Source of the DNA: Lentisphaeria bacterium
GTDB lineage: Bacteria; Verrucomicrobiota; Lentisphaeria; Victivallales; Victivallaceae
Reading direction: 5' to 3'
DNA: 64,000 nucleotides
Assembly (NCBI GenBank): GCA_017508385.1
Contig: JAFVZB010000041.1
Location: 1-64,000, forward strand
Of the stretch, positions 45,753 through 62,109 are shown one piece after another. The notes under the pieces are model-generated. The model had not been told where the DNA came from. It made no database searches and saw only the letters and a list, made by a program, of their open reading frames with translations. Positions within the stretch are counted from its first letter, which is position 1; every line of letters starts with the position of its first letter. The position numbers and the translations under genes are program-made.

Positions 45753-45920
45753 TCATTGCGCTGATGTCACTTTGCTGGTCTTGGTGCTTCCGCCGATGAC
45801 AGCCTTGACAACTCTCACATAAATGTACGACCAAGCATCATTATCCGCATCTTTCAGAAGCCGTACCAGCTCATTATTGGAAAGATCATCGTAATATTTT
45901 AATTTTTCAATCGTGATCAT
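45753..45920 (-). pseudogene. Truncated duplicate of the sigma-factor gene (5' part only)
   Basis: Translation from ATG at 45920 gives 55 residues. The first 46 (MITIEKLKYYDDLSNNELVR and on to VVKAVIGGST) match the start of the sigma factor at 57392-57994 with one change (V12 to D); after GGST the sequences part and a stop comes at 45753. At the DNA level 45779-45920 is nearly the same as 57852-57994. The start codon overlaps the stop of the caspase-like gene at 45917, much as the complete sigma gene overlaps its own caspase neighbour. This is a relic of a segmental duplication. Only the beginning of sigma region 2 remains, so it cannot be a working sigma factor, although the fragment could still be translated. 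Confidence 0.85.
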
Positions 45921-47239
45921 TCAAAGAACTCCTGATCCTCTGCCCTTTTTGCCCACCAAGCAAAAAATAGGGATGTTGCAGCTGGAAAAATGAAATCTGG
46001 CAATAAAACGAGCTCTGCAAGATAGCCAAAATCTCTTACAAACAGTAATAAATAAAACGTGATTTGCATGAACTGTACGCACGTTGCTGCAAACACATGT
46101 TTCCATGACGTAAAGTTGATTTTTTTAACACGAATTATAAAAATTAGTAATGGCAATGATATATTTATTCCCGTAAATAGATATCGTGCCACGTCATGAT
46201 AAATGTATATCCAAAGTAAATCTAAGAAAAAATATACCGTTCCAACTGCCCTAATGAATCTCCATGCTTTTGTTCTTTGCCTTGCTTTGCGAATAGCTTT
46301 GGCTTCAGCGTTGCGCTCTTCTTCGACTATAGGCTCTTCCTCGGCTTTGCGAGGAGCTTCGGATCTGCGTTCTTCTTCAGCCTTGCGGGCGGCTTCGGCG
46401 GCTTTACGCTCTTCTTCGGCTCTGCGGGCGGCTTCTTTTTCTTCTTCGGCTTTGGGAACTTCAGTTTTCGGAACTTCGGGAGACTTTTCTGTTTTCTTCA
46501 CCCAGTTGGCAAACAGCGGAATGTTGTTCCACAAGTCTACGTTTCCGGCAGAGGAGATGTTCTGATTTCTGCCGGCAGGAATCAGGGTCTTTATCCGGGC
46601 ATTAAGCTGTGTGAACAATGTGGTAAAATCCGATACCGGTGTTTTTTGGGACAACACATCAAGCAGAGCTTTAGTGAATACTCCGTGTTTTTCATTTTGC
46701 AGTTCAAACGCCTGTTGTCCGGTGCTGCAGGAGTTGATGATGAGGGGAGGTAAGTCTCCATTGTTTTCAACGGCTTCCATTGCTGATATCAGGGAAAGGT
46801 CGCGGGCATCGGAGCAAACAAATGCTTCGCCGCGTCCGGCGATAAGGTCGGTGCGACAGCAGTCGAGGATAAACAGACGGTTGAGTCCGGATTTGTTGGA
46901 TGCCTCCAATAATTCAGGAACGGTCACCGTTCCTTTTCTGTAAAAGGCAGCTGAGGCTCTTCCGCTGGGACCCACGAGGAAGTGTTCGCCGTTGAACTCC
47001 CTGCCGTGTCCGGCGAAATAAAAGACAAAGAGGTCTCCGGATGACAAAGATTTTGTCATCTCTTCGACCCTGTCCAAAACATCTTCGCAGTGGGCATCTT
47101 CATCCAGAAGAAAGTCCACCTTGTCAAAATGTTGAGCGAAATACAGGCTCAGCTCTTTGGCATCGTTGCAGGAGCAGCTCAAAGAACTGATACCGTTCTT
47201 ATAATTATCAACACCAACAAATAATCCGTATCGTCTCAT
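45917..47239 (-). CDS. Caspase-like (peptidase C14) protein with charged linker and C-terminal membrane helices
   Basis: The 440-residue protein has an N-terminal caspase-like domain (residues about 1-240) with the catalytic pair His78 (FYFAGHGRE) and Cys128 (FILDCCRTD). A low-complexity Ala/Glu/Lys/Arg linker follows (about 255-320), built of units such as ARKAEEER. The last 110 residues hold about four hydrophobic segments, so the protease would be tied to the membrane. The caspase domain is about three-quarters identical by eye to that of the gene at 57981-60071, and the shared downstream sigma fragment shows that they are duplicates. Caspase-like proteases of this class are often inactive until a signal triggers cleavage of targets. 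The natural targets are unknown. Confidence 0.85.
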   Translation of the reverse strand: MRRYGLFVGVDNYKNGISSLSCSCNDAKELSLYFAQHFDKVDFLLDEDAHCEDVLDRVEEMTKSLSSGDLFVFYFAGHGREFNGEHFLVGPSGRASAAFYRKGTVTVPELLEASNKSGLNRLFILDCCRTDLIAGRGEAFVCSDARDLSLISAMEAVENNGDLPPLIINSCSTGQQAFELQNEKHGVFTKALLDVLSQKTPVSDFTTLFTQLNARIKTLIPAGRNQNISSAGNVDLWNNIPLFANWVKKTEKSPEVPKTEVPKAEEEKEAARRAEEERKAAEAARKAEEERRSEAPRKAEEEPIVEEERNAEAKAIRKARQRTKAWRFIRAVGTVYFFLDLLWIYIYHDVARYLFTGINISLPLLIFIIRVKKINFTSWKHVFAATCVQFMQITFYLLLFVRDFGYLAELVLLPDFIFPAATSLFFAWWAKRAEDQEFFE

Positions 47240-47331: not shown

Positions 47332-47460
47332 TCATTGAACCGGCACAAGAGCGACACGGAAGCCGATGAGCCAGAAGCGGTAGCCGGGAACCTGGAAGTT
47401 CCGGAACGCAGAGCGGCAGCGCTTCGCGTCACTAGAGCAGCTACCGCCGCGGCGCACGCA
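47332..47460 (-). other. Putative variable region (retroelement-type) at the end of the FGE-like domain
   Basis: The coding strand of this 3' end is G+C-rich: by hand count 74 of 110 bases in 47351-47460, clearly above the surrounding island. It encodes RRGGSCSSDAKRCRSAFRNF, then QVPGYRFWLIGFRVALVPVQ. Positions that are usually Asn in template repeats are occupied here mainly by NNC or NNT codons (TGC, TCT, AGT, CGC, TTC, TTC, GTT, TAC, TTC, CTC), which is what adenine-directed mutagenesis of AAC/AAT codons leaves. The conserved IGFRV end with the stop close behind fits the initiation-of-homology region. A short GACC/GGTC hairpin is at 47298-47310. No template repeat or reverse transcriptase is visible in this window. 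Confidence 0.4.
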
Positions 47461-49392
47461 GTGCGAGCCGGTAGACGGACCAGTGGGGTCGGTTGCATCG
47501 CCGTGGTAGTCGTCATACCAGTCCCGGCACCACTCTTCCACATTACCGTGCATGTCATACAATCCCCATGCGTTGGGGAGTTTCTGACCTACAGGCTGTG
47601 TTACCATCCAATCTGAATTTTTATTATACCAGCCGACTTCATTCAAGTTGGATGATTTGCCAAACCACGATATTTTCATATCTTCGCCGTTATTCAATGC
47701 TGTGGTTGTTCCGGCACGGCAGGCATACTCCCACTGCGCTTCGGTCGGCAGGTCAAACCAGTAACCGGCAGGGAGTTTGCCTGAATACAAATCATTGAGT
47801 TTTGCGCAGAACTTCTTGGCATCTTCCCAGCTTACCGTATCCACCGGAAGGTTTGCTCCTGTGAAACATGAGGGATTTTCACCCATTACCGCTTCATATT
47901 GAGCCTGAGTGACTTCAAATTTACCCAGCCAGTAATCCTGTGTAAGGGTCACTCGATGCTGTTTTTCATTATCATAACGTCCAAGTTCGCCATCCGGACT
48001 GCCCATGGTAAACGTTCCGGCTTTGATTTTCACCATTTCAAGGGCAACATTGCCGGGAAGCATAAGTTTTGAAAGACTGTTTTCGAATGCCCTGCGCTCT
48101 TCTTCAGCCTTGCGAGCGGCTTTGCGCTTTTCTTCTGCTTTGCGCTCTTCTTCAGCCTTGCGGGCGGCTTCGGCGGCTTTTTCTTCCGCAGTTTTTAATA
48201 TTGACAGCAGATCGTTGTACTCCTTTTCTGCATCATTCCAAAGTTCATTGAACCAATAGTGATGAGCCAATTCCAAACGCCCTTTGAAATCATCCGGCAG
48301 AGAGTACTGCAGAGAGGAAAATTTTTCAGCAATGGTATCTTCAATACGCTTCAGTGAATACTTCTTTTCTGTCTTCCGGCACCATTCATTCAGAGCTGAC
48401 ATTTTGGCATACGCTTCAGTAAAACACTTCTGATTATAAAGAGTTTCTGCCGATTTCAAATTATCTTCGAAGTACTGTTTATCAGCTTCATCCGACAATT
48501 GCCCGGCAAACTGTTTGAGCCGCAAAGAGAGTTGGAGATACTCCTTTATCTCTGTTACTCCGGGTTTTGTTTTCTGTATTTTTTCCTCAGCAACAACACT
48601 CTTTACCGGTTCGGATTCCGGAACTTCGGGTTTTACCGGTTCAGGTTTTGCCCACCTGTCAAAGAGAATGATATCCTGGTAGACATCACCATTCCAGCTT
48701 ACTGTTTGCTTCTGTCCTGCAACAAGTTGCGCCACCTTACTGTCAACAGTTGTTTTCAACTCACGTTTGAATTTTTCAAACGAATTTATCTTCCGGTTTC
48801 CAATTACATTCAATAATGCACTGGTGAAGATCCCCTTGCCCTCAGCTTCGCTTTCAAAGGACTTTTCCCCGGTCCCACATGAAGTCAGAATAAGAGGCGG
48901 CGATATCAAATCCATACCGGAATTTTCTTTTATCAGGTTTTTCAACGAAAGATCACGCGATGCCGGACAATGTTCCACCCCCCTGTGATTTTCATGTAAA
49001 TCACTGCGGCAGCTGTCAAGAATAAACAAACGCTGAAGTCCGGGTACGTTTGTCAACTGGCATATCAATGAAATCGGTATCAAACCAAATTGGAAATCCA
49101 ACAAGCCAGCATCCGCAGTGGAACTCAAAAGGTAATGATTTCCTTTTATTTCACATCCGTGTCCGGAAAAATAAAAAACAAAAATATCACCTTTCCGGAA
49201 TTCGCTTTTCCTGCGCTTGAGAGTACTTAGCACAGTATCCGGTGTCACTTCTTTATCCAACAGCAAATCAACGCTGTAATCCTCGGCAAGAAATTTCTTA
49301 TAAATGCAGGAAGCATCTCCCCTCGCATACGACAATGGAGTTATTCCATTTTGGTAATCATTGATGCCTGCAAACAGACCATATCTGGACAT
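47332..49392 (-). CDS. Caspase-like protein fused to FGE-sulfatase/C-type-lectin-like domain
   Basis: The 686-residue protein has three parts. Residues about 1-245 are the caspase-like domain with His78 (FYFSGHGCE) and Cys128 (FILDSCRSD). Residues about 285-445 are helical and charged, ending in the same Ala/Glu/Lys-rich linker as its paralogs. Residues about 455-686 are a formylglycine-generating-enzyme-like domain: IKAGTFTMGSPDGELGR, EVTQAQYEAVMG, LPTEAQWEYACRAGT, LYDMHGNVEEWCRDWY and RRGGSCSSDAKRCRSAFRN. In this fold many relatives are binding modules, not enzymes, and the same fold is used by variable proteins of diversity-generating retroelements. A sensor role for the C-terminus with the caspase as effector is a reasonable guess. 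Confidence 0.87.
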   Translation of the reverse strand: MSRYGLFAGINDYQNGITPLSYARGDASCIYKKFLAEDYSVDLLLDKEVTPDTVLSTLKRRKSEFRKGDIFVFYFSGHGCEIKGNHYLLSSTADAGLLDFQFGLIPISLICQLTNVPGLQRLFILDSCRSDLHENHRGVEHCPASRDLSLKNLIKENSGMDLISPPLILTSCGTGEKSFESEAEGKGIFTSALLNVIGNRKINSFEKFKRELKTTVDSKVAQLVAGQKQTVSWNGDVYQDIILFDRWAKPEPVKPEVPESEPVKSVVAEEKIQKTKPGVTEIKEYLQLSLRLKQFAGQLSDEADKQYFEDNLKSAETLYNQKCFTEAYAKMSALNEWCRKTEKKYSLKRIEDTIAEKFSSLQYSLPDDFKGRLELAHHYWFNELWNDAEKEYNDLLSILKTAEEKAAEAARKAEEERKAEEKRKAARKAEEERRAFENSLSKLMLPGNVALEMVKIKAGTFTMGSPDGELGRYDNEKQHRVTLTQDYWLGKFEVTQAQYEAVMGENPSCFTGANLPVDTVSWEDAKKFCAKLNDLYSGKLPAGYWFDLPTEAQWEYACRAGTTTALNNGEDMKISWFGKSSNLNEVGWYNKNSDWMVTQPVGQKLPNAWGLYDMHGNVEEWCRDWYDDYHGDATDPTGPSTGSHCVRRGGSCSSDAKRCRSAFRNFQVPGYRFWLIGFRVALVPVQ

Positions 49393-49411
49393 AATTGTTT
49401 TTTACCTTTTT

Positions 49412-50986
49412 TTATTCAACTACCGTATAAGAAAGATATCCCGCAGCCCAGCTATCCTTTGAAAATGTTTGCAACCTTTTAATGATCCGCCGGAGCTGTT
49501 CCGGCTGAACAATATCAAAACCATCTCCACTGTGCGGCTGATAAAAAAAATCTTCCAGCGATTCTTTTGAAATGATAATGAGCAGTTGTTCTTTGCCCGC
49601 CGGTTTTTCCTGACACACCCGTAACCCCGGCAAAAACTCCTCCCCGGGGAAAGAATAGGTTCTGTTGGCATCTACTTTACAAACACCGTCAACAAAGTTT
49701 GGAGCTATCAGCAAAATGTGTTCACTGAAATTTATTATTGTAAGATATCCGGAAATATCACTCTTGAATGAAAATGTTATTTCATCACCTATTTTTACTG
49801 CCGCAGACTTAAATCCGCCTATTCCCAAGCCCCGTGGAGAAACAATATTTTCCTGTCTGGCATATATTTTTTTGAGTTCAACGGAGTGCATTTTCTGCTG
49901 TGTCCTGACAACATCAATAAGATCATCAGGCGAGGAGGGAGCTTTGCACAGCATCTCTTCACACTTTCCGGTCATCTCATTCAATGCATGATTAAAATTT
50001 TGCATTTGATTTGAAAGTAATTTCTCGAAATTTTCATTCTGTTTATTGCCAGCATCGACAGCGTTATGTATCTTTTGACAGATGCCGTCCAACAATTTTA
50101 TATTCTCGCGATGCTCTTGCCTTATTTCCGACACATACGTTTCAAATATCTTTAATTTGCCACGCTCACTCTCGCATTTTGTTTCAGCCAGTTCAGTTTG
50201 AATAGCTATCAATTGGATGTTGCAATTTTTTTCTTCTATTTGTTTCTGGAGCAATTCATTATTAGTTGCAGCAGCAATTTTTTCCAATTGCAATCTATCC
50301 AGTTTTAGTTTTAATTCATCTTCTTCAAATTCAGCATGTTTTTTCAATCTATCTTTCTCGAGCTCATATTGTAAACTTTTGATTTCCTGTTCGAGAATTT
50401 CATTTTGTACATCATTCTGATGTTTCAGCTCAGCAAGTTCAGCGCGTGCCTCTATTTCTTTTTTGGCAGCTTCGTTTTCTGCTGCTATTTTATCAATTTC
50501 ATTTTGCTGCTGCTGGAGTTGTATTTTTTTCAGAAACTCCTCCTGCTGACGCTCATCTTCAGTCTGCAGCACTTTTGCATTAAAATATTGTAATTTTTTT
50601 ATTTCAATCCACGCAGGAAGCACATCATCGTGAGGTTCCCAACTGACAGCCTCTTTTCCGTAACGCAAAACAAGACCAATGTTTGTAACTCCGTTAATGA
50701 GCTTTTGCAGATATGAAGCCAATCCATAGTCTTCGTTCTGCAATAAATGAGCAAATTCAGACAAAGTAACTTTGTCAGTAATGACCAGTAATGCCCACTC
50801 TTTGAATTCCTTATGTTCCGAGTGCACATTTATCAATAATGACGCACGTACATTGATCCCGCCTGGGCAATTCGGATGCTGCAGATCAGTATCTATTTCA
50901 ATTGGCAAGCTTGTCGGAAGAACATCGAATTTAGTACCACCTAGTGTATTCAAACGCTTTATAAATATTTTATCGTTATCTGTCAT
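49412..50986 (-). CDS. Coiled-coil protein with C-terminal DUF4384-like domain
   Basis: Residues about 1-130 form a globular domain without a family that I recognise (HPNCPGGINVRASLLINVHS). Residues about 150-330 are a long coiled coil rich in Gln, Glu, Lys and Leu. The C-terminal 120 residues resemble DUF4384 (KIGDEITFSFKSDISGYLTI, then LLIAPN, FPGEEF and an IIISKES-type strand), a domain often fused to caspase-like or kinase-type signalling proteins. I prefer ATG at 50986, which has GGAG 9 bases before it; another ATG at 51001 lacks a site. The gene overlaps the DUF1294 gene by 11 bases and precedes the caspase-FGE gene by 19 bases. Confidence 0.65.
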   Translation of the reverse strand: MTDNDKIFIKRLNTLGGTKFDVLPTSLPIEIDTDLQHPNCPGGINVRASLLINVHSEHKEFKEWALLVITDKVTLSEFAHLLQNEDYGLASYLQKLINGVTNIGLVLRYGKEAVSWEPHDDVLPAWIEIKKLQYFNAKVLQTEDERQQEEFLKKIQLQQQQNEIDKIAAENEAAKKEIEARAELAELKHQNDVQNEILEQEIKSLQYELEKDRLKKHAEFEEDELKLKLDRLQLEKIAAATNNELLQKQIEEKNCNIQLIAIQTELAETKCESERGKLKIFETYVSEIRQEHRENIKLLDGICQKIHNAVDAGNKQNENFEKLLSNQMQNFNHALNEMTGKCEEMLCKAPSSPDDLIDVVRTQQKMHSVELKKIYARQENIVSPRGLGIGGFKSAAVKIGDEITFSFKSDISGYLTIINFSEHILLIAPNFVDGVCKVDANRTYSFPGEEFLPGLRVCQEKPAGKEQLLIIISKESLEDFFYQPHSGDGFDIVQPEQLRRIIKRLQTFSKDSWAAGYLSYTVVE

Positions 50987-51305
50987 CGTAAATATCTCCA
51001 TTTAAATATAAAATCAGTATTTGAACAAGTAATATCCCGATTACAGGAAGGTGAAAACTGTTTTTCTCCGTTTTGTGATGAAATATAAGCATTGCAAGAA
51101 TACAGCCCAGGGTTCCGCCAATCACACACATCAACCACAGAAAACGCTCCGGAATACGCAAGTAACGTTTGATGGCAGCAAACTTATCATATCCCATGAT
51201 AAAAAAGGTAATAAGATTTGTTCCCGCAATATAGGTGATTATTCCACCTGCAAAAAACGCAAATGGAATAAGTATTGCCATATACAAAAATGCAAAAGCT
51301 ATCAT
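50976..51305 (-). CDS. DUF1294 family small membrane protein
   Basis: The 109-residue protein has three hydrophobic helices and the family signature: NLITFFIMGYDKFAAIKRYL, then RIPERFLW, GGTLGCILAMLIFHHKT and F-H-P near the last helix. The function of DUF1294 proteins is unknown. It overlaps the coiled-coil gene downstream and follows the membrane gene upstream by 12 bases, so it belongs to the island operon. Confidence 0.85.
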   Translation of the reverse strand: MIAFAFLYMAILIPFAFFAGGIITYIAGTNLITFFIMGYDKFAAIKRYLRIPERFLWLMCVIGGTLGCILAMLIFHHKTEKNSFHLPVIGILLVQILILYLNGDIYDDR

Positions 51306-51317
51306 TCCCGGAACTCC

Positions 51318-52253
51318 TTAATTTTTCTCCAGCCGTAACGCGAATGACATTATCTGCACATTGTAAAAAAATGCTATTGCCAATGCAACAAGAAAAAGCA
51401 AAACCCGGAGAAAATCAGAAAAACTTCCACCCACCATAAAAAACGCAAAAATCGCATCTGTAACGGTGTATATCGTCAGCACAAAAGCGTTTATCCTGTT
51501 GGAACTTTTTGCAACCATGGTTCTGATGAAAGATATCGTAACAATAGGAAGCAGCAGCATCATCAGAACAAAACCCAGAAAACGCATGTACCACGGCATT
51601 GTCAATGCCGCAAATTCAATTTTGCGGTTGCTGTCTTTGACATTTTGAACAGCACCGGCTATCGCTTTTTTAACAGGAGACGAAGAATCTTCATGGATTA
51701 TGCCCGAAGCAATACGCCTGCCGGTTCCTTTTTCGTCCAAATACCACTCACCTTTCAGGACAGCACCCGCACGATCGGACTCAAAAACATCGACCCTGCC
51801 CCAGAGAGCCGCTTGTACGTTCTGATCGGATATTTCCTTTTGCACTTCCTCAGGAGAAGAGTATTCTTTGCAGCGCAAATTCAGCCTTTTAGATAACTTT
51901 TCTCCCAAAGATGTATCCTGAATAGTAAGGACACCGGTAGCATTGAGGGATTTTCTCAGAGTATCTGAAACATAATCCGTCGGATCATTGGAAAAATGCA
52001 GCAATGCAACATTGCGGATATTTTCACGTTTGTTCCGGATTTCCTCTGTCATTTTTTGAACAGCAATATCGGCAATCTTCCGTCTCTGAGAGTCCGGTTG
52101 TGGTTTTTGCGGTCCCAGCCAGAACCACCCCAAACAGCCTACATAAATCACAAACAAAATACAGCTGATATATTGCAGTTTTTTTCCGAGCAGAGAAATG
52201 CTGAATAAAGCTCCCATAAACTTGATTATATCACTACCGATGTGTCCAGACAT
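51318..52253 (-). CDS. Membrane protein with a soluble TolB/CsgG-like domain
   Basis: The 311-residue protein has a membrane helix at about 28-47, a soluble part at about 60-215, and three more membrane helices up to the end. The soluble part (NVALLHFSNDPTDYVSDTLR, SLGEKLSKRLNL, then QAALWGRVDV) has the pattern of the small alpha/beta domain in TolB N-terminal, FlgO and CsgG proteins, which are mostly found in the envelope. This similarity is by eye and not firm. It lies 17 bases after the Vps4-like gene and may be the membrane platform for the remodelling machinery. Confidence 0.6.
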   Translation of the reverse strand: MSGHIGSDIIKFMGALFSISLLGKKLQYISCILFVIYVGCLGWFWLGPQKPQPDSQRRKIADIAVQKMTEEIRNKRENIRNVALLHFSNDPTDYVSDTLRKSLNATGVLTIQDTSLGEKLSKRLNLRCKEYSSPEEVQKEISDQNVQAALWGRVDVFESDRAGAVLKGEWYLDEKGTGRRIASGIIHEDSSSPVKKAIAGAVQNVKDSNRKIEFAALTMPWYMRFLGFVLMMLLLPIVTISFIRTMVAKSSNRINAFVLTIYTVTDAIFAFFMVGGSFSDFLRVLLFLVALAIAFFYNVQIMSFALRLEKN

Positions 52254-52270
52254 AATAATTGTCCTTAAGT

Positions 52271-53476
52271 TTATTCTTCAGAGTCAGCAGATGAGTCATC
52301 TACTGCACCGGAGTTTTCTTTGAAACATTTGTTTTTAGCAATGATTTCAGCATCCCTGACCGATGTTGGAACAACTGTTTTGAAAGCACGCTCAAAATCA
52401 CACCACGCCACCGGCTCAACCCGCATGTATTCTTCGCTTTCTTTGTCAACTCCTTCGCGTCTCAGTATCCATCTGCGGGCAGCAAATTTCCGGGCATCAT
52501 CACAAAGACCGCCGCCTTGTTCTTTGTGTGACAATTCAGCTCCGCTGAAGCCCTCTGTCAATGTAACCAGCTTGTCAATCGAAACATCATCAGCCAGCGG
52601 TACATTTTTCAATGCAGATGAAATGATCTCTTTCCGCGCTTCGGCATCCGGAAGATCCACATATACTGATGCGCTGATACGTCCACTGCGGGTTATCGCA
52701 CTGTCTATCAGCCACGGACGGTTCGTTGCCAGCAAGACAAACAGCTGGTTCTTATTATCCGGATTAAATCCGTCAAGTTCAACCAGAAACTGCTCAACCA
52801 TGCAAACCTTTTGATTTCCGCGTTTGCGCAGCATTGATTCACACTCGTCCAGAAACAGGACACATTTTTCATAAGATCTTGCTTCTTTGAACATTTTGGC
52901 AATATTTGCTTCACTTTCGCCGACATATTTACTCTTCAATTCATTCAGTTTCACATGCATGAATGTTGTGTTCATCTCGTTGGCAATTGCTTTGGCAAAC
53001 ATAGTTTTTCCTGTTCCGGGAGGACCGTAAAGAAGGAGTCCTGTTCCGGGTTTTACCTTCAATACCTCGTAGACATCCGGATGATTGACCGGATTGATGA
53101 GTGCATCACGGACGATTTCCTTTGCTTCCGCAAGACCTTTAACATCATCAAGCCGGATGTCGCTTTTACCGGAAACGGTCCATTGTTTCTGTTCAGCATT
53201 ATCAACACCTGCTGACGCGGATTCCACATCAGCTGAACGTTGTACTGAGCTTGCTGATATTATTTTTGCTTTGAGCTGTGCGGCAATCTCTACAAGTTCA
53301 TTTGCATCTTCGAGGTATGCAAAGGCTAAATCTCCGCAACTCTGCTCTGCCAGATTATATGTAAATTCAGCAGCTTGGTGTGTGTGAAAAAACGCTTTGG
53401 CATAATCATTATTTGCCAACGCTTTTTCAGCCGCGTTTTCGTGTTCTCTTTTTTTATCAGCATTAAAACTGCTCAT
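52271..53476 (-). CDS. Vps4-like AAA+ ATPase with MIT-like N-terminal domain
   Basis: The 401-residue protein has an N-terminal three-helix domain (residues 1-75) whose pattern NNDYAKAFFHTHQAAEFTYN, with EDANELVEIAAQLKAK, resembles the MIT domain of Vps4 and spastin. The AAA+ core follows: Walker A GPPGTGKT (151-158), pore loop SKYVGESE (182-189), Walker B VLFLDE (206-211), sensor 1 Asn252 (LLATNRPWLIDSA) and TEGFSGAEL near 310. The order and wording place it in the meiotic clade of AAA proteins (Vps4, katanin, spastin) rather than FtsH, although the SGRISASVYVDLPD stretch is nearer the general AAA form. In eukaryotes and archaea Vps4 pulls apart ESCRT-III polymers. The ESCRT-III-like gene lies 24 bases upstream. 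Confidence 0.82.
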   Translation of the reverse strand: MSSFNADKKREHENAAEKALANNDYAKAFFHTHQAAEFTYNLAEQSCGDLAFAYLEDANELVEIAAQLKAKIISASSVQRSADVESASAGVDNAEQKQWTVSGKSDIRLDDVKGLAEAKEIVRDALINPVNHPDVYEVLKVKPGTGLLLYGPPGTGKTMFAKAIANEMNTTFMHVKLNELKSKYVGESEANIAKMFKEARSYEKCVLFLDECESMLRKRGNQKVCMVEQFLVELDGFNPDNKNQLFVLLATNRPWLIDSAITRSGRISASVYVDLPDAEARKEIISSALKNVPLADDVSIDKLVTLTEGFSGAELSHKEQGGGLCDDARKFAARRWILRREGVDKESEEYMRVEPVAWCDFERAFKTVVPTSVRDAEIIAKNKCFKENSGAVDDSSADSEE

Positions 53477-53500
53477 ATTTCACCTGACTTTCAGAAAAAA

Positions 53501-54136
53501 TTACTTCATCAAATCTTTAAGTTTGCGGCGTCCTTCACCTATCTGAGCTGCAACAGATGAAGACTGTTCGTTAGTCATTCCCGCAATTTTTCCACCTGAA
53601 ACATCGGCAATGACCTCTTTCTCAAGATTGCTCATCATATCTTCGATGGATGGAATAGTATCTATTTTGGACATTCCATTCATCTCAGCGGTATACTGTT
53701 TATCCCAGATTTTATCTATTTCACCTTGTTCAGCCAGAGTGTCATCGACATCAATGAGGACATCCTCTATTTTATCGGGATCAACATTCAGTACACTGTT
53801 GAGAGTTCCCAACGCTGCCGCAAAATCCTGATCTGTTTTTGCCATTCCCATTTTGGTGATATATTGATTGAAAACCCAGCTTTTCCTCTCCAGTTTTCCC
53901 ATCATTATCTCGTTGGCCTGAACGGTTTGCAGGCAGCGCTGTGCGGCAGCTTTTTGACCGTCGCGCAAATAAGCTCTTGCTTCGTTCCATGCTTTATCAC
54001 GTTCAGCTTTGAGATCATTGATTTTATCTTTCACACTATCGCTTGCGCGCTCAGCTTCCCGGATCGCCTTGCGTCTTTCACGCTCTTTTTCTTTTTGGAT
54101 CTCTCTTTCGGATTTGAACAAGTCTCTCAGTCCCAT
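53501..54136 (-). CDS. ESCRT-III-like (CHMP/Snf7-type) helical protein
   Basis: The 211-residue protein has the ESCRT-III hallmarks: similar length, a short N-terminal amphipathic stretch (MGLRDLFKSER), a strongly basic first half, an acidic second half, and a C-terminal helix with a MIM1-like motif (EGRRKLKDLMK, residues 201-211) of the kind that binds MIT domains. The helices align by eye with CHMP1: KAWNEARAYLRDGQKAAAQR with the long helical hairpin, and LNVDPDKIEDVLIDVDDTLA with the segment in CHMP proteins that reads like MNLEKI. A plain coiled-coil protein or a PspA relative are alternatives, but neither explains the C-terminal motif and the Vps4-like neighbour. A good ribosome site (AGGAGA) precedes the ATG. 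Confidence 0.72.
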   Translation of the reverse strand: MGLRDLFKSEREIQKEKERERRKAIREAERASDSVKDKINDLKAERDKAWNEARAYLRDGQKAAAQRCLQTVQANEIMMGKLERKSWVFNQYITKMGMAKTDQDFAAALGTLNSVLNVDPDKIEDVLIDVDDTLAEQGEIDKIWDKQYTAEMNGMSKIDTIPSIEDMMSNLEKEVIADVSGGKIAGMTNEQSSSVAAQIGEGRRKLKDLMK

Positions 54137-54171
54137 AATAAATTCTCCTTGTATTGATGCGTTATTTTTTA

Positions 54172-54732
54172 TTAGAAATCAGCAAGTTCTTTTTCAAACT
54201 GCTCATCTTTTTCTTTTTCAAGCTGCTGCATGGCAAAATCGAGCGGTATGTCTTCGACATTGCTTTGGTATTGCCGCTTCTGTAAATCTTTTATTGCGGA
54301 ATTTTCATTATCCCATTCATCCAGCATCATGTCATAATCAACGGAAGCGGATTCGATTTCCTCAGTCCGGGTCGGATTTTTCAACGCAAACATGACAGCT
54401 TCAAGTTTGTCGCAAAGAATTCGATCATTATCGATCCGGTCGGAAATAATATCAATAAGCTCTTCTTTTCTTTTATAAGTTGCCAAAAGCGACATCAATT
54501 CTCGTTTTACAATTTTTTGCTTCAGAGTTGAAGTAAGCTCATTGTATATTTTCTTCTTAATCCGGATTTGTTCCTCTATAGCCTCTGCATCCTCTTTGAT
54601 GGCATCGAGTTTATCCTGATTGTTTTTTATTGAGGAATTCAGAGAGAGACTTGATTTTAAAAGCGTGTCATATTCTGAATCTTTCAACCCCATTTTCGTA
54701 ACAAGTTCTGCGAGAATATCATTTATTGCCAT
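54172..54732 (-). CDS. Helical charged protein, possible second ESCRT-III-type subunit
   Basis: The 186-residue protein is nearly all helix. Residues about 30-110 could form a long antiparallel hairpin, with basic residues in the centre (IRIKKKIYNELTSTLKQKIV), and the last 60 residues are acidic (DYDMMLDEWDNENSAIKDL). The basic-then-acidic layout, the size and the place directly upstream of the ESCRT-III-like gene (35 bases) suggest a partner filament protein. I see no clear MIM1 motif; the end reads EKEKDEQFEKELADF. The assignment is inference and the family is not recognised. Confidence 0.5.
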   Translation of the reverse strand: MAINDILAELVTKMGLKDSEYDTLLKSSLSLNSSIKNNQDKLDAIKEDAEAIEEQIRIKKKIYNELTSTLKQKIVKRELMSLLATYKRKEELIDIISDRIDNDRILCDKLEAVMFALKNPTRTEEIESASVDYDMMLDEWDNENSAIKDLQKRQYQSNVEDIPLDFAMQQLEKEKDEQFEKELADF

Positions 54733-54753
54733 TTTCAGTTCTCCTTATGTAAT

Positions 54754-56742
54754 TTATTTATCCAATTTGCGTTCAAAATATCCCTGAATACATGTTGTTA
54801 TATATAAGCATACGGCAAGCATAAAAACTGACAACCCCTTTCCCATTTCCTGCTGCAAACTTGGAGGGAGCAGCATTCCGCGCAGCTGAATACCAATAAT
54901 TCCGATCAATGCGACACCAAAACCTTTCACGTGTCTTTTGAACCATGAATCTGGTTGTGAAAACCGTATGAGTTTTGCATTTTTTTCTTCAGCACTGCGC
55001 ACCCGGACAGCCTTCTCGCTGTTTGCAAAATAATTCAGGAAATTGCCTGTTTTCTGAAGTTTGTCACAACAGCTGGCGACCAATTCTTCCGGAATATTCA
55101 ACTCTTTTGAGATTTTTTTAACTGTGACGTTTCCGGAATATCTGTTGTATCCCTGAATATATTTCTTTACTCTGTCACACCTTTCGTCAGATTTTTCAGG
55201 ATAGAGGGAATAAACGAAATCACGATAAACTTTTCTGTAATTATCGAGTGCGAGATGCCTGACGATCCATTGGCGGCTTTCATTCAAGTGGCAGAGAAGC
55301 TGCACACTGTCTTTGAGCGCAACCGGATCGTTGTTGCTCCACCCCTCCGGAGTGGCTAAAATCCAACAGGCGCAATTCGGTTTAGCAGCTCCGGTATTTT
55401 TTTCCCATGTTTTGACAAAAGATCTCAATGCCTCATATATTGAATTGTCAGCCCGGATGATCTTTTGCTGCTGTATATCTATGGGAGTAACAAAGAAAGC
55501 CACAAAGCGGAAAACTATTGATCCCCGGGAAAGCTCATACATTCTGAAGAGGTTTGCAGCCTCGATTTTGGCAAAATCCTCTTCCGTCACGGTATCTTTT
55601 TCGGGAATAATTCCTGCCCGGCTCAAAAAGTTGCAAAATTCCTCTCCGTCGACACGAATTTCTTTGTACTCACGGAATTTCAAGCTGAAGAAGTGCGGAA
55701 TTAAATTTACCCAGACAGGAAGATTTATACCCGGAATTATTTTCCCTGTATTTTCTCTGATATTGACATCAAGAGCTGAGCCGAATTGCCGGGCATCATT
55801 CATTTTTCTGTCGATTTCGCTCGCGAGTTCCGGAGATAATTTTTGCCAGAAACTGTAACCGTTGCTGACAAATTTATTCCGGTTTTCAGGAGTGTTTAAT
55901 CTTGCGTTGCCTCTGCCGTCAATTATAATGGAGTCTCCGGCTGCAATTTCAAATACTCCGGATAAGGCATCCTTCATATCTTTGGTAGCGACAGAGATAT
56001 ATTTTTGCATCAGTGATGTTTCAAGAGATGAGTTTTTATCATCAGAACAAGTCATAATAGTTCCAGCCTCCCAGGCATTGTCAATTACATATTGATAAGA
56101 TATTTTTATAAGACCGCTATTGTTTTTCGCCCAATTTTTTCCCCAGCTGTTTTGTACGAGAAAATATCCTCCACCGGGAATATGCTCTGCATCTTTGTAA
56201 CCGTAAATAAGCATCGCATGTCCGCCGTCGGGAACTGCACCAAATGGAACTTCGAGCCAGTCATCATGTATATTCATCGGAGAATATACCCGGCATCCGA
56301 AAACAATGGGCATCGGCTTTGTGTTATTTGCTCCGGTCAGAATGTATTTGTATTCATCTATATTGGACGGAGTATATAATTTATGAAAATTTATCTCCGG
56401 CAAGCTGATAGTTTGAAACTCATCCAAGCGCTCAGCGGATATTTGAGCTTCATCTTCAGTTTGATTTGGATTATATGGCCAATCTTCGAACGGCAGCACA
56501 CCGAATTGCTGAATGCAGTTGAAAACCTCTTCTATTGATGCGCCTGCCGTCTCGGCATCTTCCTGAGCTTCAGACAGTTTGCAGCAGGCATACAGAAACT
56601 GCGGACTGAGTTTTACTTTATTCTGCAGGTAATACTCAAGAAGGGCAATGGTGCTGAATGCAGCACAAGTTCCTCTTTCACCCTGATTGGTTGCTTCGGG
56701 AATAAAATTCGGTACAACTGTTGATTTAGGCAGCGTGTTCAT
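54754..56742 (-). CDS. Papain-like (C1) cysteine protease with C-terminal membrane anchor
   Basis: The 662-residue protein has a papain fold in residues about 1-245: oxyanion Gln20 and nucleophile Cys26 (NQGERGTCAAFS), His175 (DGGHAMLIYGY) and Asn198 (LVQNSWGKNWA). There is no signal peptide or propeptide, so it acts in the cytoplasm. Residues about 250-570 are an unassigned region, and about 540-600 may contain a winged-helix (VTVKKISKELNIPEELVASCC). Two hydrophobic helices near 610-655 would anchor it to the membrane. Its start overlaps the anti-sigma gene by 4 bases. Cleavage of the anti-sigma factor or of the caspase-like proteins would be an attractive role but is not shown. Confidence 0.82.
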   Translation of the reverse strand: MNTLPKSTVVPNFIPEATNQGERGTCAAFSTIALLEYYLQNKVKLSPQFLYACCKLSEAQEDAETAGASIEEVFNCIQQFGVLPFEDWPYNPNQTEDEAQISAERLDEFQTISLPEINFHKLYTPSNIDEYKYILTGANNTKPMPIVFGCRVYSPMNIHDDWLEVPFGAVPDGGHAMLIYGYKDAEHIPGGGYFLVQNSWGKNWAKNNSGLIKISYQYVIDNAWEAGTIMTCSDDKNSSLETSLMQKYISVATKDMKDALSGVFEIAAGDSIIIDGRGNARLNTPENRNKFVSNGYSFWQKLSPELASEIDRKMNDARQFGSALDVNIRENTGKIIPGINLPVWVNLIPHFFSLKFREYKEIRVDGEEFCNFLSRAGIIPEKDTVTEEDFAKIEAANLFRMYELSRGSIVFRFVAFFVTPIDIQQQKIIRADNSIYEALRSFVKTWEKNTGAAKPNCACWILATPEGWSNNDPVALKDSVQLLCHLNESRQWIVRHLALDNYRKVYRDFVYSLYPEKSDERCDRVKKYIQGYNRYSGNVTVKKISKELNIPEELVASCCDKLQKTGNFLNYFANSEKAVRVRSAEEKNAKLIRFSQPDSWFKRHVKGFGVALIGIIGIQLRGMLLPPSLQQEMGKGLSVFMLAVCLYITTCIQGYFERKLDK

Positions 56743-57395
56743 TGCAGTCTGATGTCTCCATGGGAAATATATTTATCGGGAAAAGATATACTGATACCCT
56801 GTCCGCTGATACTTTTTTTGAAGTCTTCGACAGAAATTACGGTATGTCCGTCGTGTACCGGCAGATATATGCTTCTGAAACACAACACTCCGGATGGCAA
56901 AGGGGAATTATTTGCGGTGTAAACAAAGAAATCCAGGGTACTGGAATTGGTCATTACAGCCGGAAAACGCAGCATTGCTTTCCAGTAATACGGTGATGCT
57001 TGAGAAACATCCGAGGAAAAACAAACTTCCGGAGCCGAAACATTGGCAGCCTTTTTATTTTGCGGACTGGCAAACGCTATTTTCTGCCCTGCGTTCCCAA
57101 ACGGCACAGCGCCGGATGTCAGGCTGACGACAGCGCAAGAGCTGAGTTTTTCAGAAATCCATTTGATGATTTCCTGTAACTTATCTTGTTTTTTCAACCT
57201 TGCAGACACGATATTGTGTACTTGCATCAATTCAATTTTTGTCGGCTGATAATCGCAAGATCCTGCCTCTAATGCTGTATGCAGATTTTCGCAGCAGTCA
57301 TTACAGTTGCAGATATGGGCGGCGAGTTCGGCATCACTTTCAGTTGGAGTTACGGATGCGAAACGAATGATTTCTTCGATATCTGGACAATTCAT
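56739..57395 (-). CDS. Zinc-finger anti-sigma-like protein
   Basis: The 218-residue protein begins with CPDIEEIIRFA and has the HxxxCxxC pattern (AAHICNCNDCCENL, residues about 26-35) of the zinc-finger domain of anti-sigma factors. A helix follows, then a C-terminal beta-rich region of about 100 residues that I do not recognise (PYYWKAMLRFPAVMTNSS, LPVHDGHTVISVEDF). No membrane helix is seen, so it would be a soluble anti-sigma factor. The gene overlaps both the sigma gene and the protease gene by 4 bases, which indicates coupled translation. Confidence 0.72.
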   Translation of the reverse strand: MNCPDIEEIIRFASVTPTESDAELAAHICNCNDCCENLHTALEAGSCDYQPTKIELMQVHNIVSARLKKQDKLQEIIKWISEKLSSCAVVSLTSGAVPFGNAGQKIAFASPQNKKAANVSAPEVCFSSDVSQASPYYWKAMLRFPAVMTNSSTLDFFVYTANNSPLPSGVLCFRSIYLPVHDGHTVISVEDFKKSISGQGISISFPDKYISHGDIRLQ

Positions 57396-57994
57396 TTTGC
57401 ATCTCCTGAAAATTTTGTTATAAGTTTTACCAAATCGCTTTTGGCTCTCAAGTGATACTGGTCGACATTGTTACTGCTTTTCAAACCCAAAAAATTCTTG
57501 ATTTCCTCAGAAGAATAACACCCCTGATTTTTCAATAGGAACACATACGCTCTCATCGGATTTTCTCTCCATAATTCTGCAAAACTCATTTCGGTTACTT
57601 CAGCAATTTCACGACATGCTGTTCTGCTTATAGAGATGAATTTCAGACACTCATCTGACACATGGGAAGGAAATTTTTTACAATATCCCAGAATGATATT
57701 CATAACATATATCCTCATCCAGTAAATGAGAGGACAGCCGGATTTGAATAGGTCAAGTTTATTTCTTCCGACCATTTCAGCATACAGGTCGGACCATATA
57801 TCGCACTCTTCCAAACCTTTATCCTTCAATATGCGGCGGTAGGCTATGCCGTTTCTGGTGCTTCCGCCGATGACAGCCTTGACAACTCTCACATAAATGT
57901 ACGACCAGGCATCATTATCCGCATCTTTCAGAAGCCGTACCAGCTCATTATTGGAAAGAACATCGTAATATTTTAATTTTTCAATTGTGATCAT
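57392..57994 (-). CDS. ECF-like sigma-70 family RNA polymerase sigma factor
   Basis: The 200-residue protein shows region 2 features (ELVRLLKDADNDAWSYIYVR, then IYWMRIYVMNIILGYCKKF) and a region 4 helix-turn-helix near the C-terminus (FLLKNQGCYSSEEIKNFLGL, then QYHLRAKSDLVKLI). Size and layout agree with ECF sigma factors, although the sequence is far from the well-known groups. It is followed without gap by the anti-sigma-like gene and overlaps the caspase gene upstream by 14 bases. It may drive the island itself; no common promoter for it could be read by eye. A truncated copy of its 5' end is at 45753-45920. Confidence 0.8.
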   Translation of the reverse strand: MITIEKLKYYDVLSNNELVRLLKDADNDAWSYIYVRVVKAVIGGSTRNGIAYRRILKDKGLEECDIWSDLYAEMVGRNKLDLFKSGCPLIYWMRIYVMNIILGYCKKFPSHVSDECLKFISISRTACREIAEVTEMSFAELWRENPMRAYVFLLKNQGCYSSEEIKNFLGLKSSNNVDQYHLRAKSDLVKLITKFSGDAK

Positions 57995-60071
57995 CGTCAG
58001 CTCCGCAACTGTACCATAGAAAAAAAAACGGCTTTAGCATCCCAATCCCCCCAAGTAAATAAGGAAATAAAAGGACTTCATTAAATCCATAAACAAAAAA
58101 AGGTGCTGCAACCATAGGTACATAGATCATGATCACACACAATCGACTTACTAAAGGATGTATGTACTTCATTTCGATATCAAATATACCTACTCCTACC
58201 GCAAGGGGGAAAAAGCTTATAAGACAAAGAATAGCATATAACCAAATATCTACTTTTAACACGGTTAAAGGCAAACACAATAATGCTAACAAAAAGGGAA
58301 AGAATAACCAGGCTTTTCTACGTTCCATTGGTTCCCTGCGCCTTATTTCTTCTGCTATGCGGGCTTCTTCCTCGGCTTTGCGCTCTTCTTCAGCTTTGCG
58401 GGCAGCTTCGGCGGCTTTACGCTTTTCTTCGGCTTTGCGGGCAGTCAATAATTTTTTGATTTCATTGCCAAGTGACAAGGCTGTTGACCATTGCCGGTTG
58501 TTTTCTGCCCGGGTAAATTCATCCAGCTTGGGAGAAAATGAAGAAAATGATACACCATAGTGTGCTGATAATTCTGACCGCAGTTTATTGATTTCATCTG
58601 CCAGTTTATCAACCTCTGCTATCTTGCCGTTTACGGATTTGAGTTGGTCATTCAACAGTTGAATAACCTGCTGCCAATACATCCGGGATTTCTGATAATT
58701 TTTCTCTTCGAAAGCATGCTTGCCATTGCTGATAATGATATTGTTATCTCCGGAAACAGTTTCTCCGATACTGCTGATTTTCTTTGTAAGGTTTTCTATT
58801 TCGTGATAGAGTAATTTTGAAATTTGTTCTTCCAGAAGCGTGCGTGAATTTTGCAAAAAATCTTTTGCAAGATTGTAATCACCGCATTTAATTGCATTAA
58901 TTGCAGTGTTTTCCAAGTCCACTGCCTGTTCGGATACGTCGTTTTTGTGCGTTGTTAAAAAGTTTTTATGTTCATCAATTTTTTTCAACTCATCATTACA
59001 AATCATTGCAAAATCTATTTTTTGCTTATACTCGGTGAGAGTTTCATTGATACTTTTTAATTCTTCAATTTTTTGGCGGGTAATGGTCCCGGTATTGCCG
59101 AGTTTCGAAAGCTGTTCTTTCAAAATAACATTTGTTTTTTGCAGGAGCAAAGGTATGTTTTCACGTTTTTCCAAAAACTGAATTTCCTTTTCAAGCCTTG
59201 AAAAATCAACATAAAACGAGCGGCGTTCTGCATCTGATAATGAGATGTCTTCCTGACATGATGTTTTTGCAACAGTTGCTTTCAGAGCTTCAGGTTCCAT
59301 CGGTTTTGAAAACTTTTCGCTTTTCTTTATCCAGTTTGAAAACAAAGGAATGTCGTTCCACAAATTTATGTTTCCTTGTGGAGAAACATGCTGCTTTCTG
59401 CCGGTAGGAATAAGCGTTTTTATCTTTGCATCCAGTTGCTGGAATAACGTGGTGAAATCAGACACGGGAGTTTGGGCATTTGTCAATACTGAGAGCAGAG
59501 CTTTAGTGAATACTCCGTGGTTTTCATTTTGCAGTTCAAACGCCTGTTGTCCGGTGCTGCAGGAGTTGATGATGAGGGGAGGCAATCCGCCCTCCTTTTC
59601 AACGGTTTCCATTGCTGATTTCAGGGAAAGGTCGCGGGCATCGGGGCAAACAAATGCTTCGCCGCGTCCGGCGATAAGGTCGGTGCGACAGCAATCAAGA
59701 ATAAAAAGACGGTTGAGTCCGGATTTATTTGAAGCAGCGAGAAGTTCCGGCACAGTTACCGTTCCTTGGCGGTAAAATGCCTCATTTGCCATCCCGCTGG
59801 GACCGACAAGGAAATGTTCGCCCTGGAATTCCCTGCCGTGGCCGGCAAAATAAAAGACAAAGAGATCTCCGGGAGACAAAGAATTGGTTATCTTCATGAC
59901 TCGATCCAAAACATTCCCGCAGTTGGCTTTTTCATTCAGAAGCAGATCCACCTTATCAAAGTGTCTGGCAAAACAGAAGCTCAGTTCTTGTGCGTCGTTG
60001 CATGCGCAACTCAAAGAACTGATACCATCCTTGTATGTATCAACACCTACAAATAATCCGTATCGTTTCAT
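57981..60071 (-). CDS. Caspase-like protein with long coiled coil and C-terminal membrane helices
   Basis: The 696-residue protein has the caspase-like domain at about 1-240 with His78 (FYFAGHGRE) and Cys128 (FILDCCRTD). A long helical/coiled-coil part with many Lys, Glu, Asn and Leu runs from about 265 to 545, followed by the Ala/Glu/Lys/Arg-rich linker (about 550-585) and four or five membrane helices to the end. It is the closest paralog of the gene at 45917-47239; there the coiled coil is missing and the membrane part differs in sequence. It overlaps the sigma gene by 14 bases. Confidence 0.85.
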   Translation of the reverse strand: MKRYGLFVGVDTYKDGISSLSCACNDAQELSFCFARHFDKVDLLLNEKANCGNVLDRVMKITNSLSPGDLFVFYFAGHGREFQGEHFLVGPSGMANEAFYRQGTVTVPELLAASNKSGLNRLFILDCCRTDLIAGRGEAFVCPDARDLSLKSAMETVEKEGGLPPLIINSCSTGQQAFELQNENHGVFTKALLSVLTNAQTPVSDFTTLFQQLDAKIKTLIPTGRKQHVSPQGNINLWNDIPLFSNWIKKSEKFSKPMEPEALKATVAKTSCQEDISLSDAERRSFYVDFSRLEKEIQFLEKRENIPLLLQKTNVILKEQLSKLGNTGTITRQKIEELKSINETLTEYKQKIDFAMICNDELKKIDEHKNFLTTHKNDVSEQAVDLENTAINAIKCGDYNLAKDFLQNSRTLLEEQISKLLYHEIENLTKKISSIGETVSGDNNIIISNGKHAFEEKNYQKSRMYWQQVIQLLNDQLKSVNGKIAEVDKLADEINKLRSELSAHYGVSFSSFSPKLDEFTRAENNRQWSTALSLGNEIKKLLTARKAEEKRKAAEAARKAEEERKAEEEARIAEEIRRREPMERRKAWLFFPFLLALLCLPLTVLKVDIWLYAILCLISFFPLAVGVGIFDIEMKYIHPLVSRLCVIMIYVPMVAAPFFVYGFNEVLLFPYLLGGIGMLKPFFFLWYSCGADDDHN

Positions 60072-60114
60072 ATAAATTATCCTTTAATATTACCCAAACG
60101 CCATTTTCCAATAT

Positions 60115-62109
60115 TCAAAAAAGTTTTGGATGTCGTTGCTTCAGTTTTTCACGGCAAGGACATTTTCTGAAAGCCCGCTTCCCGATACTCGAAACGCTAC
60201 TTGGAATATTGACGCTGGTCAGGTTTTGGCAACCATAAAACGCACCTATTTCAATAGTTGTAACACCGTCTGGAATCTTGACGCTGGTCAGGTTTTTGCA
60301 ACCAAAAAACGCATAACTTGCAATGGTTGTAACACCGTCTGGAATATTGACGCTGGTCAGGTTTGCGCAATCTTCAAACGTAGAACTTTCAATGGTTGTG
60401 ACACCGTCTGGAATCTTGACGCTGGTCAGGTTTGCGCAACCACGAAACGCACCACCTCCAATGGTTGTAACACCGTCTGGAATCTTGACGCTGGTCAGGT
60501 TTTTGCAACCATAAAACGCACAAAATCCAATGGTTGTAACACCGTCTGGAATCTTGACGCTGGTCAGGTTTGCGCAACCATAAAACGCATGATTTCCAAT
60601 GGTTGTAACACCGTCTGGAATCTTGACGCTGGTCAACTTTGCGCAACCATAAAACGCATCCATTCCAATGGTTGTAACACCGTCTGGAATCTTGACGCTG
60701 GTCAGGTTTGCGCAACCACGAAACGCATCCATTCCAATGGTTGTAACACCGTTTGGAATATCCACGGTTTCAATGTCCTTATAGATACATTTCTTCAACA
60801 CAGTTTTGTCTTCACTGAAAACAAACCTTTTTTCAATGGCTCTACCCCAACTATCAGCGCGAACTTCTTCAGCCTGTAATATAGCATTGAGTGATGAATA
60901 TTCAGCTTCAGCTTCGTCCAAAAATCCAAAGCGCAAATAGGAGTGTGCCAACGTAAAAGCGGAATCAAATGTATCCGGAAGCACGGAACGCAATTTTTCT
61001 ACTCTTGCTGAAATAGTTTCTTCAAGCTGTTTTAAAGAGTATTTGCGTTCAATTGAATCACACCATTGTGCCAACGCTGATATTTGGCTGAAAGCACGTT
61101 TGAATTCTCCTTGTCCGACTTTTTCCTGCGCAGAGTCCGTCTCCTTCTTAATATATAGCCTGTCTTTTTCAATCAGTGACATCTGAGAAAATTTTTTGAT
61201 CCGGTCGACATGCCGCGTGTATTCTTTCACTTCCTCAGGGGTGATTTCCTGCTCTTCAGGCGAAGGATAATTGGCAGGTGTCGGCTGTTTTTTGTCGGGA
61301 CACTCAGAGAAATCTTTTATCTCTGATGGAGATATTTTCTGTTCATCAACAACTACCGCCTGTGCAGGTTTCCAGTTCGGAAACAGAGGAATATGGTTCC
61401 AACCATCCACGTCTCCGAGCCATGACGGAGTTTGACGCTGTGGTAATATTCTGTCGGTATGCAATCTCTGCATCCCTGAAGATATTCTGCTACGCAAGTT
61501 TTCAAAGCTGTCGGTTGTCGGATCTTTAAGCGCATTAATGATTATTTCAGTATAAAAACCGTGCCCGGTTTTCTTATTTTCAAATGCTTTTTCGCCGGTG
61601 CTGCATGAGGTGGCAATCAGAGGAGGAATTATCTCCTGGTGATTTGCGGGGGCATTAAGCAAACTCTGTAAACTCAAATCTCTTGACTCAGGACAAAACG
61701 CAACACCTCTTCCGTCAAGCAGAGACTCCTTACAGCAATCGAGAACAAACAATCGCTGTACTCCCGGAATATCAGTTGCCGCTTTTATTCCAGCAAGCGG
61801 TATCATTCCAACATGAGCGTTCAGCAGATTGCTGCGGGCATCGGAAGAGAGCAGATAGTGCTCATTTTGGTCTTCACAGCCATGTCCGGAAAAATAAAAA
61901 ACAAAAATATCTCCGCTCTTAAGCCGAAACATCTCCAATTTGTCAAAAATACTCACTGCAGTCACATCAGCATCATGCATGAATATTGCATCAAAGCCTC
62001 TGTCGCTGAACATCCTGTACAATGTCATAGCGTCTTCTCTTGCGCACGACAATGGCTTTATGCCTTTCTCATAATCATTGACGCCTATAAATAATCCGAA
62101 TCGTCCCAT
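60115..62109 (-). CDS. Caspase-like protein with BspA-type leucine-rich repeats
   Basis: The 664-residue protein has the caspase-like domain at about 1-240 with His76 (FYFSGHGCE) and Cys126 (FVLDCCKES), a helical part at about 270-420 similar to that of the caspase-FGE protein (SQISALAQWCDSIERKYSLK matches its relative), and nine 23-residue BspA-type repeats to the end. Such repeats are used for binding, often to surface or host proteins, so this end may be the sensor. It is the first gene of the island in the direction of transcription; a TATAAT is 39 bases upstream. The Ala/Glu/Lys linker of the other three paralogs is absent here. Confidence 0.88.
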   Translation of the reverse strand: MGRFGLFIGVNDYEKGIKPLSCAREDAMTLYRMFSDRGFDAIFMHDADVTAVSIFDKLEMFRLKSGDIFVFYFSGHGCEDQNEHYLLSSDARSNLLNAHVGMIPLAGIKAATDIPGVQRLFVLDCCKESLLDGRGVAFCPESRDLSLQSLLNAPANHQEIIPPLIATSCSTGEKAFENKKTGHGFYTEIIINALKDPTTDSFENLRSRISSGMQRLHTDRILPQRQTPSWLGDVDGWNHIPLFPNWKPAQAVVVDEQKISPSEIKDFSECPDKKQPTPANYPSPEEQEITPEEVKEYTRHVDRIKKFSQMSLIEKDRLYIKKETDSAQEKVGQGEFKRAFSQISALAQWCDSIERKYSLKQLEETISARVEKLRSVLPDTFDSAFTLAHSYLRFGFLDEAEAEYSSLNAILQAEEVRADSWGRAIEKRFVFSEDKTVLKKCIYKDIETVDIPNGVTTIGMDAFRGCANLTSVKIPDGVTTIGMDAFYGCAKLTSVKIPDGVTTIGNHAFYGCANLTSVKIPDGVTTIGFCAFYGCKNLTSVKIPDGVTTIGGGAFRGCANLTSVKIPDGVTTIESSTFEDCANLTSVNIPDGVTTIASYAFFGCKNLTSVKIPDGVTTIEIGAFYGCQNLTSVNIPSSVSSIGKRAFRKCPCREKLKQRHPKLF
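60160..60770 (-). repeat. Tandem 69-bp repeats coding for BspA-type leucine-rich repeats
   Basis: The anchor caccgt(c/t)tgg (plus strand) recurs exactly every 69 bases at 60264, 60333, 60402, 60471, 60540, 60609, 60678 and 60747. Each unit codes for 23 residues of the form NLTSVKIPDGVTTI-xxx-AFYGCA. The units are almost identical except for the three residues after TTI (GMD, GMD, GNH, GFC, GGG, ESS, ASY, EIG). The unit nearest 60160 is diverged (VSSIGKRAF) and acts as a cap. Near-identity at DNA level points to recent expansion or gene conversion. Confidence 0.92.

Follow-up and report, generated by a model that had tools for sequence, protein, structure and literature searches.

ESCRT-III proteins build filaments on membranes, and Vps4 is the enzyme that disassembles such filaments. 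To our knowledge, the pairing of the two is generally held to occur only in archaea and eukaryotes. Accordingly, previous studies have reported ESCRT homologues from archaea and not from bacteria (PMC10936438), have stated that a clear Vps4 homologue is lacking in bacteria, and have described PspA and Vipp1 as acting without Vps4 (PMC7615534). Ravi et al. 2024 have reported that VPS4-like ATPases were transferred to bacteria, where snf7 was displaced by a TPR/6TM gene, and that some bacterial Snf7-clade genes lie near AAA+ ATPases (PMC11237479). The accessible part of that paper describes no MIT-bearing ATPase adjoining a Snf7 gene, no fusion of the two, and no system of the Lentisphaerae or Kiritimatiellae. 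Since the same part mentions bacterial VPS4-like and Snf7-clade genes, the novelty of the locus reported below is lowered, but not removed.

We have analysed a stretch of 64,000 nucleotides from a Lentisphaeria bacterium (the window), for which a preliminary description had proposed that an ESCRT-III-like protein and a Vps4-like ATPase with an MIT domain are coded side by side and operate together. Both open reading frames are confirmed on the minus strand, 24 nt apart: one codes for a protein of 211 aa (53501-54136), the other for an ATPase of 401 aa (52271-53476). All the motifs named beforehand, i.e., GPPGTGKT, SKYVGESE and TEGFSGAEL in the ATPase and RRKLKDLMK at the C-terminus of its neighbour, are present. 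Overall, profiles and models argue for both families and folds, and the linkage of the two genes is observed; that a complete filament-plus-disassembly pair operates here is what we infer, though strongly.

The 211-aa protein matches Pfam Snf7 with 35.7 bits (E 8.7e-9), against a curated cut-off of 27.3, and 19 of its 22 relatives match the same family at E <= 1. Searching the PDB with a profile of 40 sequences returns yeast SNF7 (E 4e-8) and Asgard ESCRT-IIIB (0.013), with PspA and Vipp1 absent from the matches at E <= 1. Neither is PspA_IM30 matched by the 211-aa protein itself in Pfam at E <= 1, nor is it among the 25 families most matched by the 22 relatives. That is, the profiles pick Snf7 over PspA_IM30, by which we have rejected an orthologue of PspA or Vipp1. 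Charged helical proteins readily give weak profile matches, and the similarity might in principle be a chance one between coiled coils. A second coiled-coil family from the same loci, here called CCB (16 members), serves as a natural control for this, and Snf7 is not among the matches listed for it. Because the Snf7 match lies above the curated cut-off, is shared by most relatives and has no counterpart listed for the control family, and with ESCRT-III dominating the structure search as well, we regard chance similarity as extremely improbable. The best profile matches in Pfam and the PDB are thus Snf7/SNF7, and not the unrelated coiled-coil families that might have been feared.

The AlphaFold2 model of this protein (pLDDT 75, pTM 0.62) has helices at residues 3-7, 10-58, 62-98, 102-116, 130-152, 164-179 and 192-210, which is the ESCRT-III layout of a long alpha1-alpha2 hairpin (10-58, 62-98) followed by alpha3-alpha5. 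Foldseek against the PDB ranks S. islandicus CdvB, Asgard ESCRT-IIIB and Snf7 first, then Vipp1 and PspA, with CHMP1B also among the leading matches. Nine of the ten top entries have probabilities of 0.94-1.00, those to CdvB, Asgard ESCRT-IIIB and Snf7 being 0.99-1.0; the E-values are modest at 0.03-0.08, as is usual for short helical folds. The CHMP/Snf7-like helix pattern noticed earlier is therefore borne out by the model and these matches, and so is the basic-to-acidic layout, the charge being +8 in residues 1-100 and -12 in residues 101-211. Based on these profiles and the model, the 211-aa protein is a member of the ESCRT-III family. The window's CCB protein itself (186 aa, 54172..54732, minus strand) belongs to a family that accompanies the pair at most of the loci, and a profile comparison with the ESCRT-III family gives an ambiguous result (probability 68%, E 4.7e-5), so that CCB is possibly a divergent ESCRT-III subunit or an adaptor. 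In distant loci (L038, L039, L040, L041, L043 and L044), CCB carries an N-terminal cysteine-rich module (CxxC...LPN).

The neighbouring ATPase matches PF00004 with 127.9 bits, and its AAA+ core (52529..53146) is intact, with Walker A GPPGTGKT, Walker B LFLDE, the pore-loop motif SKYVGESE and ATNRPW. Vps4_C is not among the best 25 of the 41 Pfam families listed for it; as far as we know, the beta domain of Vps4 is also missing in archaeal CdvC. The earlier proposal of an MIT-like helical start holds at the level of predicted fold and is invisible to sequence profiles. Residues 1-75 (53252..53476) have no MIT profile match in Pfam or the PDB across the 31 relatives searched, while AlphaFold2 models them as a three-helix domain with a pLDDT of 92.6. 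The best Foldseek match is 2w2u, the MIT domain of Sulfolobus Vps4 (probability 1.00, TMt 0.81-0.82, rmsd 1.5 A), from a PDB entry on the interaction of this archaeal Vps4-type MIT with ESCRT-III; VPS4A MIT gives a TMt of 0.85. Behind 2w2u come SKD1, S. solfataricus Vps4, VPS4A, VPS4B, MITD1, NRBF2 and yeast Vps4 MIT, with some unrelated helical proteins interspersed. Taken over both proteins, the Foldseek E-values are modest at 0.03-0.2, although the probabilities are high. Weak matches of this region to HEPN and CheR are judged to be chance, since only two to three members show them and the fold search returns MIT. We thus regard the N-terminus of the ATPase as a predicted MIT fold.

At the extreme C-terminus of the ESCRT-III protein lies a helix (53504..53563, minus strand) that is conserved in most relatives with the consensus [ILV]xxG[RQ]x[RK][LV]xx[LI][LM]. 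The tail RRKLKDLMK had been called MIM1-like; its presence and conservation as a helix stand, and it fits the MIM1 core (R/K-L/V-x-x-L) in part only. The tail is missing from a Kiritimatiellae lineage whose MIT is divergent (MQSMT type), from the lineage that has a CbbX-like AAA (by inspection), and from proteins where ESCRT-III and AAA parts are fused. An aromatic residue stands at MIT position 38 in 19 of 22 ATPases with a tail-bearing partner, vs 1 of 9 with a tail-less one. Loss of the tail thus appears to track change in the MIT domain, which is suggestive only, because there are few independent events. When the tail was joined to the MIT domain through read-through of TAA and TGA, AlphaFold2 extended helix 1 with the tail and gave no sign of docking. 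On sequence grounds, we regard the helix as MIM-like and as a candidate MIT-interacting motif.

In the AAA tree, the bacterial ATPases form one clan (support 97/91), which groups with CdvC, Vps4 and FIGNL1 against Cdc48 and FtsH (97/93); the tree is unrooted and has few reference groups, taken from PDB alignments, with CdvC from Sulfolobales only. L038_149, which a first tree had placed with FtsH, was left out of the final one. The bacterial ATPases may accordingly belong to the meiotic clade in the sense of this grouping, within which they are a clan of their own. Topology tests leave a clade of the bacterial clan and CdvC standing (p 0.14), reject one with only eukaryotic Vps4 (p 0.002) and reject one with Cdc48 marginally (p 0.046); of the two relationships for which a phylogeny had been suggested, sisterhood to CdvC therefore survives and an exclusive one to Vps4 does not. 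The CdvC result, together with Sulfolobus CdvB and Vps4 MIT as the closest folds, would agree with these bacteria having recently acquired a CdvB-CdvC pair from archaea by horizontal transfer. On the other hand, the clan is well supported and separated from CdvC by a long distance, its MIT domain is unrecognisable by sequence, and many diverged subfamilies of the pair exist within the phylum, and we consider a recent transfer unlikely. An older transfer from archaea may have taken place, the CdvC sequences in the tree being those of Sulfolobales.

The pair is carried by some bacteria from the Lentisphaerae/Kiritimatiellae group that live in guts and sediments. Of 137 genomes in the window's order, 9 have the ESCRT-III family, as do 25 of 162 genomes in a second order and 15 of 388 genomes in a phylum sample. 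A scan with a narrower alignment gives 21 loci, with Lentisphaerae, Kiritimatiellae and Verrucomicrobia among the record titles, while a genome-wide scan with the single 211-aa protein as query gives no matches; plasmids and phages show no match to the ESCRT-III protein. Outside the phylum, the scope is that of a motif-limited scan, and the named records are nearly all metagenome-assembled genomes (MAGs). Some genomes carry two to four ESCRT-III copies, and archaea and eukaryotes likewise have multiple copies.

In 35 of 40 Verrucomicrobiota loci, the ATPase gene lies near or adjoining the ESCRT-III gene on the same strand, and four of the five exceptions are no more than 0.9 kb away from the end of their contig. 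Three of the 35 are fusions, in which an ESCRT-III hairpin and a Vps4-like AAA domain share one reading frame and the MIT domain is replaced (L087:1256-2668, minus; L088:7455-8849, plus; L089:7720-9111, plus). Taken together, sequence and models support an ESCRT-III protein and a Vps4-like ATPase of MIT fold as a conserved pair, sometimes fused. As to variants, two AAA domains are seen in some ATPases of the same family (L009:4372-6762, L027:5962-8982 and L028:941-3166). In L045, L085, L086, L090 and L091, an MIT-like domain sits on a CbbX-like AAA, and the ESCRT-III protein no longer has its tail helix; the genes nearby in L086 include those for a Ser/Thr kinase and for a helicase-nuclease (DUF4011/MTES_1575).

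In the window, the pair belongs to an operon-like array of 13 genes (45917-62109), all on the minus strand, in which neighbours are separated by, or overlap by, fewer than 100 bases. Beside the ATPase gene, a membrane protein of 311 aa (51318..52253), conserved at this place in close relatives, has by inspection a TM stretch at its N-terminus and several more at its C-terminus, which flank a domain. It is followed by a small DUF1294 membrane protein (50976..51305, PF06961 E 1.6e-21) and a coiled-coil protein with DUF4384 (49412..51001, PF14326 E 1.3e-9), the latter kept in close relatives. On the other side of the pair, beyond CCB, lies a papain-family (C1) protease (54754..56742, PF00112 E 1.7e-13), also kept in close relatives and ending in TM helices by inspection. 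Then come an anti-sigma-like protein (56739..57395), conserved beside the sigma gene, with a zinc-finger-like HxxxCxxC by inspection and no significant match in a Pfam search, and a divergent ECF-type sigma factor (57392..57994), whose relatives in L027 and L028 match Sigma70_r4_2 with E 8e-7 and 1e-4, respectively. Four caspase-type proteins complete the array: a C14 protease upstream of the pair (57981..60071, PF00656 E 6e-15, GHG and DCC motifs by inspection), a protein with leucine-rich-type repeats by inspection (60115..62109, PADLOC caspase 1e-6), one with a formylglycine-enzyme-like domain by inspection (47332..49392), and one of 440 aa with TM helices (45917..47239). The C-terminal parts of these four thus differ, being formylglycine-enzyme-like, leucine-rich-type repeats or TM. 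The contig also has ordinary bacterial genes, among them one at 44863 that by inspection resembles a tRNA pseudouridine synthase; because of these genes and the recurrence of related loci across many independent MAGs, we have ruled out contamination.

The source genome has FtsZ and lacks PspA, and PspA_IM30 is missing in 20 of the 21 genomes searched in the window's order (G000 to G012, G024 to G031). As FtsZ is present, division is unlikely to depend on the pair, and with PspA absent, envelope maintenance or a stress response is likelier than division. At distant loci, SPFH (Band_7) proteins with zinc ribbons are encoded near the pair (L040:15718-17346, L041:16761-18356, L043:6660-8351, L044:6738-8336, L079:8997-11198, L080:1453-3501 and L082:1062-2852), and in B. 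subtilis the SPFH protein YdjI ties PspA to the membrane (PMC8581546). These neighbours recall the PspA/YdjI operon, and PspA and Vipp1 share the superfamily and also appear in the Foldseek list. One might hence propose a PspA-like envelope-stress protein that resembles Snf7 and is recycled by an unrelated AAA+ unfoldase without any MIM-MIT contact, but the profiles choose Snf7, the ATPase has a predicted MIT fold and falls within the Vps4-type AAA clade, and fusions of the two partners exist. We think this explanation quite unlikely.

The proteases of the array bring in the main rival to envelope maintenance, namely a conflict system for cell death or defence, in which the polymer would be a scaffold or a sensor of membrane damage, the ATPase a regulator and the proteases the effectors. 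The four caspase-type proteins of the array and its C1 protease, a caspase gene beside the fused ATPase of L089, Ser/Thr kinases and FHA proteins encoded at distant loci, the patchy distribution in the phylum sample, and a match of the ATPase to AAA models of the anti-phage protein IetA (E 2e-34, PADLOC) all speak for it. The IetA match may be generic to AAA proteins, since it covers mainly the core and its score of 109.5 bits is far under the NCBIfam family cut-off of 510, and we have rejected an identity as an IetA defence ATPase. Moreover, caspases are seen at some of the loci only, unlike the ESCRT-III-ATPase pair, and the ESCRT-III protein has neither a PADLOC match nor plasmid or phage relatives. 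We regard the conflict system as a possibility of less than even weight. An envelope-maintenance machine with Vps4-type recycling is the best reading, and the two roles can be combined.

We therefore consider it probable that the pair is a bacterial ESCRT-III/Vps4-type machine for stress-induced membrane maintenance. By analogy, the 211-aa subunit would polymerise on the inner face of the cytoplasmic membrane via its alpha1-alpha2 hairpin. Its C-terminal helix would bind the MIT-fold domain and so recruit the adjoining ATPase, and an ATPase hexamer would then draw subunits through its pore, by which the filament may be remodelled or recycled at the expense of ATP. Induction would probably come from the array's own sigma/anti-sigma pair under envelope stress, and the physiological role would be membrane maintenance, or action beside the caspase and papain proteases, rather than cell division. 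A bolder proposal, which we hold as rather doubtful, is that of a deep-branching bacterial ESCRT-III/Vps4 lineage with MIM-MIT recruitment, not recently acquired from archaea and in some cases in one polypeptide, which would be connected with caspase-type proteases and would thereby tie membrane repair to protease-driven death of the cell, similar to pyroptosis and necroptosis in animals.

The occurrence of an ESCRT-III/Vps4-type pair in Verrucomicrobiota, where its genes are linked, have diversified and in some cases are fused, contradicts the restriction of such pairs to archaea and eukaryotes, and is relevant to how coupling to Vps4 arose. With its naturally occurring fusions of filament protein and ATPase, the pair may also serve as a small model in bacteria for the remodelling of ESCRT-III by an AAA+ motor, and the neighbouring caspases suggest that membrane repair and protease pathways are linked, which can be tested.

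Compared with the known systems, the pair resembles anti-phage IetAS in its ATPase core and in the logic of an AAA protein with a protease, but the IetA score is far below the family cut-off, no IetS subtilase was identified among the neighbours scanned with Pfam, and the ATPase here starts with a predicted MIT fold and is paired with an ESCRT-III protein. With PspA/Vipp1 (IM30), it shares the superfamily fold and, at distant loci, an SPFH partner, as for YdjI and PspA in B. subtilis (PMC8581546), whereas its sequence is closer to Snf7 and PspA itself is absent from the genome. Eukaryotic ESCRT-III (Snf7/CHMP4) and VPS4 have in common with it the Snf7 domain, a MIM-like C-terminal helix, an MIT fold (here predicted) and meiotic-clade-like AAA motifs; unlike in eukaryotes, the tail fits MIM1 in part, grouping with Vps4 is rejected, and no ESCRT-I/II partners are seen. 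From the Cdv system of Sulfolobales, it differs in the bacterial host, the separate ATPase clan, the absence of a visible CdvA gene, the linkage to proteases, kinases, SPFH proteins and sigma factors, and the presence of FtsZ in the genome, with which dependence of division on the pair is unlikely. Like CdvB and CdvC/Vps4, it consists of a filament protein of the ESCRT-III type and an ATPase that has a single AAA domain and, at its N-terminus, a (here predicted) MIT fold, and Sulfolobales CdvB and Vps4 MIT are the best PDB fold matches for its two parts.
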